From Candidatus Planktophila versatilis (GTDB lineage: Bacteria; Actinomycetota; Actinomycetes; Nanopelagicales; Nanopelagicaceae), in the NCBI RefSeq assembly GCF_002288265.1, contig NZ_CP016778.1:1054001-1118000 (forward strand): a stretch of 64,000 bases of DNA. The letters are read 5' to 3'. The notes beneath the pieces were generated by a model, which saw only the letters and a list, made by a program, of their open reading frames with translations, ran no database searches and was not told where the DNA came from. Shown here piece after piece: positions 51,459 to 53,113 of this stretch. The translations under genes were made by a program, and so were the position numbers. Each line of letters begins with the position of its first letter. The first letter of the stretch is position 1.

Positions 51459-51557
51459 GGTCTTAACTCCTTCGTAGATGTTGCACTAAGCGGAGCTCAG
51501 ATTACCCGAGCAACCTTCAATGGTGAAATCCGTGCGTATTTCGCACTTGATTATTAG

Positions 51558-51631
51558 TAGCGGAGGCGGGATTTGAACCCACGACACAGCGATTATGAGC
51601 CGCTTGCTCTACCAAGCTGAGCTACCCCGCC
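51558..51631 (-). tRNA. tRNA-Met (CAT)
   Basis: A 74-nt cloverleaf on the reverse strand: acceptor GGCGGGG with CTCCGCT (two G-U pairs), D-arm GCTC/GAGC, anticodon loop CTCATAA giving CAT, T-loop TTCAAAT. It lacks the C1-A72 mismatch and triple G-C anticodon stem of an initiator, so it is elongator Met, or possibly the Ile2 type decoding AUA. Confidence 0.94.
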
Positions 51632-51659
51632 AAGGGCGTGCATATTAAATTGTTGTTCG

Positions 51660-51732
51660 AGCCCCCCACCGGAATCGAACCGGTGACCTTTTCCTTACCA
51701 TGGAAACACTCTACCGACTGAGCTAGGGGGGC
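51660..51732 (-). tRNA. tRNA-Thr (GGT)
   Basis: A 73-nt cloverleaf on the reverse strand: acceptor GCCCCCC/GGGGGGC, D-arm GCTC/GAGT, anticodon loop ATGGTAA giving GGT, T-loop TTCGATT. It lies 28 bp before tRNA-Met, and both precede rpmG, a conserved actinobacterial trio. Confidence 0.96.
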
Positions 51733-51794
51733 AATGGTAGAGAGTGAAGTCTAGGGCTTAAGGCCTAAAGTGAAAAATTGCCGTGGCAAATGAG

Positions 51795-51911
51795 TTAATT
51801 ACAGGAGCAGCGATCGGCTTCCGCGACTCCCATTAAGGCCTCTTCTATATGCTCCCCGCAGCCTTGCCATGTTGGTTTTGCGCACTTGGTGCATTGAACT
51901 TTGCTACACAT
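51795..51911 (-). CDS. 38-residue cysteine-rich small protein
   Basis: A short reverse-strand gene, ATG 51911, with a strong ribosome site AGGAGG five nt upstream. It encodes 38 residues beginning MCSKVQCTKCAKPTW and ending ADRCSCN, with seven cysteines: two CxxC-like pairs, one in GCGEH and a C-terminal CSC. This pattern suggests metal binding. Proteins of this look (MCSKVxCxxCxKxTWxGCG) recur widely in bacteria and eukaryotes as uncharacterised small proteins; I know no established function. It sits between tRNA-Thr and the FUSC-like gene, 8 bp after the latter, and may be cotranscribed with it. Confidence 0.85.
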   Translation of the reverse strand: MCSKVQCTKCAKPTWQGCGEHIEEALMGVAEADRCSCN

Positions 51912-51919
51912 ATTTCCTC

Positions 51920-53113
51920 CTAGAAATACTTTCTGAAAAACTTCCTAATCTTATTCCGAATCGTAGAAGTTTGCTGCATGGGCGAAAGCTTGAGCACTCG
52001 GTCTTTGGCTGGCTCATCAGGTGTGATGACATCTGTGATGGCAGGAGAGTTCTGATCAAGTGAATCCGCAATTCTGCCGATATTGGCAACAATAGAGAGC
52101 CCGCGGACAATCTGATCTTGGTCAACATCATCTCCATCTTCAATCAGTGTTCCGGCCAGGACTGAGCCTGCCTCACGTGCATCATCTGTTGGTGAAGAGG
52201 CATCATCATTGATGTCATCTGGTATCTCAACGTGAGCTGAAATTGCATAGCTGGCAGCCGATAGCGCCACTGCAATTTGTTTCTGGGTTGAATCTGCAAT
52301 TCCACCTTCTACCGCGGAATCAAAGAGTGTTCGGGCAATCATGCGCACCTGCACCAAGGTGTGCTCGGCGGCAATTCCTTCAATGTAGATATCTTCGGCT
52401 TCATCTTTTTCAGCAGTAGGAAACCATCTCGCATGACTTCGAGCTTCCACTGATTGCGCGCGGATGGCCGGAACTTCTTCCACTAAAAGTCGCGCACGTG
52501 CCAACCAGCTGCCGGCATCCTTCTGGGTATATCCGGCGGCAACACCTTCTGACATTTCAGCAAGAAGAGCTGCTGCTTTAGTGCTCACATTTCTGATCTG
52601 GATTTGTGCACGTCCCACTGGAGTATTGGGATGTGAAAAGTAGGAGAAGAGGATTGCGATTGCGGCACCGATGAGAGTTGATCCCAGTCTGTGAACGGCA
52701 GTGCTCTGCGAAATTCCTGGTCCAATAACAATCAGTGCTGTTACTGGCACGTTGACCGAAGCAACTTCACCAAGATGCAGCGCTCTTGCTATGACGGCGC
52801 AGAAAATAATTGTTGTGGCAACTGCGATGAAGCCAAAGTTAAAGACACTGACGGTAAAGAGTGCGATACCTGCACCCACAGCCGTTCCAACAATTTGGCC
52901 AAAACCTTCGCGCATAGATTTATGCAGAGAGATGCGAATACTCAAGGTGCAGACAATGGCAGCGACTACCCCACCATCTTCGATGAGTAGATCTCCCACA
53001 AACCAAGAAACGCCACCTGCTAAACCGGCGACCAGAATCTGGCGAACCCAGTTCTTCCGGTTCTTAAAGAGGTTAACTATTTTTCTAATCATTAAGGAGG
53101 AGTTTACGCCCAA
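51920..53113 (-). CDS. FUSC/aromatic-acid-exporter-like membrane protein
   Basis: About 397 residues. The N-terminal 150 have several membrane spans (VRQILVAGLAGGVSWFVGDLL, GFGQIVGTAVGAGIALFTVSVF, GSTLIGAAIAILFSYF). The rest is a soluble, helical region rich in Ala and Asp, as in FUSC-family exporters, with an acidic stretch near residue 320. This family includes aromatic-acid and other small-molecule exporters; substrate unknown. TTG 53113 has AAAGGGG 4 nt upstream, whereas ATG 53092 has no ribosome site, so the TTG is preferred, with doubt. It diverges from the CoA-binding gene; the start codons are 23 bp apart. Confidence 0.75.
   Translation of the reverse strand: MGVNSSLMIRKIVNLFKNRKNWVRQILVAGLAGGVSWFVGDLLIEDGGVVAAIVCTLSIRISLHKSMREGFGQIVGTAVGAGIALFTVSVFNFGFIAVATTIIFCAVIARALHLGEVASVNVPVTALIVIGPGISQSTAVHRLGSTLIGAAIAILFSYFSHPNTPVGRAQIQIRNVSTKAAALLAEMSEGVAAGYTQKDAGSWLARARLLVEEVPAIRAQSVEARSHARWFPTAEKDEAEDIYIEGIAAEHTLVQVRMIARTLFDSAVEGGIADSTQKQIAVALSAASYAISAHVEIPDDINDDASSPTDDAREAGSVLAGTLIEDGDDVDQDQIVRGLSIVANIGRIADSLDQNSPAITDVITPDEPAKDRVLKLSPMQQTSTIRNKIRKFFRKYF

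Follow-up and report, generated by a model that had tools for sequence, protein, structure and literature searches.

The closest known counterpart of the system considered here is the ScCsoR circuit of Streptomyces coelicolor. According to the accessible part of the report by Lu and co-workers, ScCsoR binds the palindrome ATACCn6GGTAT, and modification of its Cys37 by sulfane sulfur frees the promoters of the genes for PDO, a rhodanese, a sulfite transporter, and ScCsoR itself (PMC7533328). As described there, the circuit consists of four genes, encoding a CsoR-like transcription factor, PDO, the rhodanese, and the sulfite transporter, and that part of the report includes no mini-protein (PMC7533328). 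The cst operon of Staphylococcus aureus is alike in that CstR, a CsoR paralog that senses per- and polysulfide, represses genes for a sulfurtransferase and a persulfide dioxygenase, sqr, and a TauE-like gene; it differs in that no homolog of the protein studied here is mentioned in the available portion of its description (PMC5480029). In Synechococcus, the Cys4 zinc site of PerR is persulfidated by polysulfide and zinc is released, as stated in the available text (PMC9952342). This is the chemistry that we propose below for a small protein that, unlike PerR, is not a repressor, and we claim no homology between the two.

Here, we describe a family of small Cys proteins (SCP), beginning with a member encoded in a 64,000-nucleotide stretch of Candidatus Planktophila versatilis DNA, referred to as the window. 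SCP loci share with the S. coelicolor circuit, as the accessible text presents it, the ATACCn6GGTAT operator, a two-Cys CsoR-family repressor, and rhodanese, MBL-fold, and TauE neighbors (PMC7533328). We consider it fairly probable that SCP is a zinc-finger-like metal-thiolate mini-protein and a so far unrecognized part of the CstR/ScCsoR sulfane-sulfur circuit in Actinomycetota, where it would buffer or carry sulfane sulfur. We show the reality of the gene, its ligand-like conservation, its operator, its linkage, and the class of the linked repressor; the chemical role is a proposal.

Two further kinds of protein invite comparison. MymT-like bacterial metallothioneins are small, Cys-rich, and associated with a CsoR-family regulator, as is the case at SCP loci; SCP differs from MymT in having no Pfam family, an invariant GCGxH, a conserved Trp, and sulfur rather than copper neighbors. 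TusA and DsrC are sulfur carriers. SCP resembles them in its sulfur-transfer context, and one SCP is fused to DsrC, but its SCP portion has no Pfam match.

The SCP gene of the window

The gene was found with the coordinates and length given by the original prediction, on the minus strand (Table 1), and its product is MCSKVQCTKCAKPTWQGCGEHIEEALMGVAEADRCSCN. Seven cysteines had been claimed; the protein has six, at positions 2, 7, 10, 18, 35, and 37, and H21 is also listed among its key residues. The CxxC, GCG, and CSC patterns that had been noted are all found in SCP, and the ribosome-binding site is the AGGAGG listed in Table 1. As had been described, the gene lies between tRNA genes and a putative membrane exporter, with tRNA-Thr and then tRNA-Met on its 3' side and a FUSC-like gene ending 8 nt upstream. 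The FUSC-like gene and the SCP gene are probably part of the same operon. A promoter and terminator scan of the window stretch gave counts no higher than those for shuffles. The genome is a single contig of 1.33 Mb.

Absence of codon-level conservation among related strains had been named as grounds for dismissing the gene. Such conservation is present: in comparisons with the two nearest relatives, pS was 0.67 and 0.87, far above the pN values of 0.13 and 0.12, and we therefore conclude that SCP is a translated gene under purifying selection. A chance ORF is ruled out by homolog conservation together with these codon statistics.

Table 1. Features at and around the SCP gene, in window coordinates
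Feature	Position	Strand	Evidence and remarks
SCP gene	51795..51911	-	38 aa, C2 C7 C10 C18 H21 C35 C37; sequence, homologs, purifying selection
Shine-Dalgarno AGGAGG	51916..51921	-	4 nt before ATG, overlaps stop codon (51920-51922) of the upstream FUSC-like gene; sequence
FUSC-like (FUSC_2/ArAE_1) membrane protein, start codon uncertain	51920..53113	-	Pfam PF13515 (4.9e-9), PF06081 (2.1e-7); order kept in 6/21 Nanopelagicaceae copies
tRNA-Thr(ggt), downstream of SCP	51659..51732	-	
tRNA-Met(cat), downstream of SCP	51557..51631	-	
SCP to tRNA-Thr spacer, 62 nt	51733..51794	-	No dehydrogenase gene here, unlike L191, L192, L194

Distribution of the family

Homologs of SCP were found in 22 of 41 genomes in a search of relatives and in 48 of 396 genomes of the phylum (own genome counted in both) and in at least 120 contig stretches. 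They also occur in 78 plasmid records, for which every genus listed belongs to Actinomycetota (a further two records are unlisted), in one phage record, and in seven viral contigs. Locus L071 comes from a metagenome-assembled genome (MAG) titled "Thermoflexus," in whose phylum 5 of 201 genomes have SCP, and L101 comes from an "Acidobacteria" MAG, in whose phylum 7 of 199 genomes have it, with the center genome counted in each case; binning errors in both MAGs are possible. The protein had been assigned to a type found in very distant organisms. The family is indeed real, widespread, and unnamed; among the bacteria searched it is mainly actinobacterial, with further members in two other phyla. 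None of the 48 matching genomes of the phylum belongs to family f18, which we take to be Streptomyces, a genus having the sulfane-sulfur circuit, and this absence counts against an explanation based on that circuit.

The window protein matched no Pfam or NCBIfam family at an E value of ≤10, and 26 SCP members gave single weak matches alone (best E value, 0.03). PHROGs yielded nothing usable for SCP, and the best sequence match among solved structures (E value, 0.13, over a short stretch) was not accepted as a relative. Literature searches for such a mini-protein by description and by peptide string, with most subscription papers outside their coverage, found no paper, and broader searches brought up no title about one. 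The original statement that the protein type has no known role thus holds for the libraries and papers searched, but the operator and the neighborhoods described below tie the family to sulfane-sulfur homeostasis. Of 30 plasmid records shown, 25 have no gene entry at the SCP match in the PLSDB table, which is incomplete; the SCP gene is therefore probably often overlooked by annotation.

Among the viral contigs, L182, L183, and L186 carry SCP genes, and the window protein shares 76 and 70 percent identity with those of L182 and L183, respectively. Besides SCP, L183 (1-14529) encodes a ribonucleotide reductase and contains a weak tail-type match. The presence of SCP on phages suggests, speculatively, a benefit during infection.

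Sequence signature and predicted fold

SCP proteins are about 37 to 75 residues long and share the signature M-C-x4-C-x2-C-x4-[WYF]-x-G-C-G-x-H-...-C-x-C or C-x-G-H. In the wider collection, M1, C2, C7, C10, W15, G17, C18, G19, and H21 were fixed by the search pattern; our statements on invariance rest on 56 unique members found by similarity to the window protein and without the pattern. C2, C7, C10, G17, C18, G19, H21, and C35 are invariant in these, and all 56 combine C7xxC10 with C18xxH21, that is, a CxxC knuckle with a second Cys/His pair. C35 is also present in all 183 unique members of 36 to 90 residues, a set without shorter or longer proteins (truncated ones, the DsrC fusion of L021, and the viral L181). 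It is followed by Cys37 in 118 of them, by His38 in 60, and by His39 in the five others. Exchange between Cys and His at a shifting position is the behavior of metal ligands, and since a Cys or His stands at one of positions 37 to 39 in 183/183 members, the conservation is ligand-like.

Short members, of which the window's SCP is one, end after the C35 pair, and others add a tail that ends like GFFxRLFGR. The short form is predicted to fold as a hairpin plus a short helix (pLDDT, 89.8; pTM, 0.53), while the tail is predicted with low confidence (pLDDT, about 56). The predicted fold had no Foldseek match at an E value of ≤0.001, and 0 of 18 chains reached a Z score of ≥2, with no match to a zinc protein. 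For the alignments, the sequences of A1 and A5 were chosen by hand, and A4 comprises the window protein and 128 of 130 sequences, with L154 and L157 left out.

The main rival to our proposal starts from these same features. SCP could be a store or chaperone for zinc or another soft metal, made alongside the sulfane-sulfur enzymes because metal sites are disturbed by sulfide and persulfides, and would then guard metal homeostasis under sulfide stress while carrying no sulfur itself. The ligand-like exchange in all 183 members and the combination of CxxC with CGxH are in line with this, and nearly all Cys residues of SCP may be metal ligands, with none left for a carrier role. Sulfide also elicits a zinc-limitation transcriptome in S. 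aureus, with induction of czrA and czrB, as given in the accessible part of that study (PMC5480029). On the other hand, sulfur transferases and reductases are the commonest neighbor families. Metallothioneins are metal-dense, whereas SCP has six Cys in 38 residues and an ordered predicted fold. We regard a pure metal buffer as a possible but doubtful explanation and continue to favor a protein that handles sulfane sulfur.

An operator upstream of SCP genes

Of 126 distinct SCP genes, 56 have the palindrome TACC-N6-GGTA no more than 150 nt upstream; the corresponding figure for other ORFs from the same stretches is 10 of 455 (Fisher p, 2.5e-32). Viral loci L180 to L186, identical proteins, and genes with less than 100 nt of upstream sequence were dropped from this count. 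Fifty sets of dinucleotide shuffles gave a mean of 0.12 and a maximum of one operator match, and all other spacers from 0 to 12 gave two or fewer matches each. An operator of the ATACC-n6-GGTAT type is thus present at the level of the family, though not in every member. In a quick look at the two other phyla, seven loci from the phylum of L101 showed no palindrome in the 400 nt upstream, and two of eight loci from the phylum of L071 had one, which argues against generality. Sites of copper-type CsoR and of RicR from other species resemble that of ScCsoR, according to the accessible text (PMC7533328), so that the motif alone cannot name the signal.

In ten loci (L062, L072, L080, L085, L134, L140, L147, L150, L151, and L168), the palindrome ends on the SCP start codon; L072 is from Microthrixaceae and L085 from Ilumatobacteraceae. 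At such loci, a bound repressor would cover the SCP start site too.

Gene neighborhoods

Local profiles searched in six frames placed a rhodanese domain within 3 kb of 60 of 128 SCP genes and a CsoR-family repressor within 3 kb of 46 (viral loci L180 to L186 and identical proteins dropped). Both profiles were built from SCP neighbors themselves; of the distinct domains behind the counts, Pfam confirms 50 of 54 for rhodanese and all 38 for CsoR, so that up to four rhodanese calls are unconfirmed. These counts supersede a rougher one of lower sensitivity, made with an ORF caller, that had given 34 rhodaneses and 14 CsoR repressors for the 128 genes within 2.5 kb. At least one of palindrome, rhodanese, and repressor accompanies 96 of the 128 genes; 32 relatives have none of the three, and 56 of the 128 have less than 1.5 kb on one side.

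Adjacent genes were tallied for those SCP genes with a same-strand ORF within 700 nt, and one protein can count twice. Among the best 25 of 86 families upstream (n = 73), we found Rhodanese 18 times, pyridine nucleotide-disulfide reductase with its dimerization domain 8 times, and the metallo-beta-lactamase fold 5 times; among the best 25 of 59 families downstream (n = 50), Trns_repr_metal and Rhodanese were each found 3 times. A CsoR-family repressor and/or a rhodanese is near SCP in six of seven annotated plasmid regions, and neither is present in the seventh. The cluster of Arthrobacter YC-RL1, with a divergent repressor and then SCP, an MBL protein, two rhodaneses, and TauE, is the Streptomyces gene set plus SCP.

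Clusters with two or three SCP paralogs are found in L198, L204, and L206 and also in L076 and L143. In the first three, a short SCP lies at the operator and another lies past the reductase-rhodanese; the second SCP is tailed in L204 and L206 and cut by the contig end in L198. In L201, L202, and L205, the gene directly after SCP is of the yaaA type (PF03883, tested in L202) and not a sulfur gene.

In L021 (1501-2037), SCP and a DsrC-like protein (PF04358, 4.7e-29) form an in-frame fusion, and a CsoR-family gene is divergently adjacent. Two coupled genes are also conceivable, given an internal ATG. The in-frame fusion supports a role of SCP in the sulfur circuit. It could also be accommodated by an adaptor, a zinc-finger-like peptide that would dock to rhodanese, TauE, YeiH, FUSC, or, via the optional GFFxRLFGR-like tail, the membrane and would tune its partner. 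Such a peptide would be compatible with the conservation of the tail in many members and with the position of SCP in Nanopelagicaceae, where it immediately follows genes of the YeiH type (PF03601) or FUSC type. However, the tail is missing from short members such as that of the window and is modeled at a pLDDT of about 56, and the partner genes vary between loci. We therefore consider an adaptor unlikely and retain the sulfane-sulfur circuit as the preferred setting of SCP.

Type of the linked repressors

In CsoR-family repressors, a His four residues before the second Cys (z-4) is a copper ligand. At this position, the parsed repressors from SCP stretches carry Gly in 26 cases, Ala in 17, Ser in 9, and Asn in 1, and His in 0 of 53, versus 18 of 24 in stretches without SCP. 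Eight repressors were unparsed; inspected by eye, those in SCP stretches comprise three with Gly at z-4 and two that are cut off, and those in stretches without SCP comprise one with Gly, one with His, and one without the motif. Of 32 CsoR-centered stretches, 10 contain HMA or P-type ATPase motifs; all ten are of the His type, in support of the copper meaning of the z-4 His. Among the 120 SCP stretches listed, strict HMA and multicopper-oxidase motifs were absent and a P-type ATPase motif was found once (L099); a looser, uncontrolled CPx-like pattern gave 15 frames. Judged by these residues, the SCP-linked repressors belong to the two-Cys type that lacks the copper His.

A MymT-like copper metallothionein of a copper CsoR/RicR regulon would also be small and Cys-rich, with an operator of the CsoR-family type ahead that resembles RicR sites as presented in the accessible text (PMC7533328), but the absence of a z-4 His from 53/53 parsed repressors and the near absence of strict copper-transport motifs make this explanation very improbable, and a copper regulon for SCP was judged unlikely given the repressor type and the neighbors.

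SCP in the lineage of the window

Among the window's genome and 24 others of the genus, many of them incomplete, the repressor domain PF02583 was found in G002, G010, G013, and G020 only. TACCCNNNNGGGTA is present once in each of these four genomes and always before SCP (14 genus genomes tested); it is present in one of the ten other genomes tested (G022), elsewhere and not before SCP. Because a reversed control pattern also matched, at six sites spread over 5 of the 14 genomes, an isolated site carries little weight, and it is the position before SCP that carries the argument. That all four PF02583-bearing genomes among the 14 Nanopelagicaceae genomes tested have the palindrome before SCP supports the membership of SCP in the circuit. 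In G002, G013, and G020, the order is a FUSC- or YeiH-type gene, the operator, SCP, the repressor, a rhodanese, a CoA-disulfide-reductase-like protein with a rhodanese domain, and a second SCP. G010 has a different upstream gene, and its contig ends after the rhodanese. An FAD protein encoded between SCP and the repressor in G013 is read as SQR-like.

The window's genome has no PF02583 repressor and no TACCCNNNNGGGTA, and no operator lies upstream of its SCP gene; the window's copy therefore cannot be under such control. The rhodanese proteins of this genome comprise a tandem transferase, encoded next to a PF04143 sulfur transporter, as well as a ThiF-rhodanese and a UPF0176 rhodanese. Cotranscription with the FUSC-like gene had been singled out for attention, and the link between the two genes stands in the window's lineage, where 6 of 21 Nanopelagicaceae copies keep the order, but is not general across the family. 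In L191, L192, and L194, a gene for a zinc-binding dehydrogenase (quinone-oxidoreductase-like) overlaps the SCP end by 4 nt; no such gene lies at 51733-51794 of the window. The window's copy is thus an orphan, probably expressed with the FUSC-like exporter gene. It belongs to a family linked to the sulfane-sulfur pathway by its other loci and may, by extension, belong to that pathway itself. In its lineage, the circuit may have been lost or may never have been present.

Proposed function of SCP

The partners of SCP in the circuit would be CstR/ScCsoR-type repressors, rhodanese, persulfide-dioxygenase-like MBL proteins or CoA-disulfide-reductase-rhodanese, TauE, and thioredoxin. Rising sulfane sulfur, in the form of persulfide or polysulfide, would modify the two-Cys repressor, which would leave the ATACC-n6-GGTAT operator, and SCP would then be made together with the sulfur enzymes. 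In the protein, C7-x2-C10 and C18-G-x-H21, at the helix start, probably form a zinc site, and C2 and C35-x-C37/H38 would provide further thiolates or ligands. These thiolates would most likely take up sulfane sulfur, either as a buffer or for hand-over to rhodanese, DsrC, or thioredoxin partners. The reaction of polysulfide at the zinc-thiolate site of Synechococcus PerR, as given in the available text, offers a precedent (PMC9952342).

A more specific version of this proposal, which we put forward tentatively, would make SCP a dedicated relay for sulfane sulfur with a zinc mini-fold as its scaffold. Met1 is expected to be removed when Cys follows. Cys2, exposed in this way, could form an open reactive site with C35 and C37/H38 beside a structural zinc finger and pass persulfide from rhodanese-type enzymes to DsrC and thioredoxin; SCP might then be a widespread, often unannotated component of the circuit that also travels on plasmids and phages.

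Accounts of sulfane-sulfur homeostasis have so far comprised enzymes, a repressor, and an exporter, and SCP, at 38 to 60 residues, would be a missing component. It sits behind operators of the circuit in many actinobacteria, with no family model found for it and often without annotation. Our results provide a lead to the function of a small protein that would otherwise be left "hypothetical" and give a nameless family its first testable job. The window suggests that streamlined freshwater actinobacteria keep SCP without the rest of the circuit.
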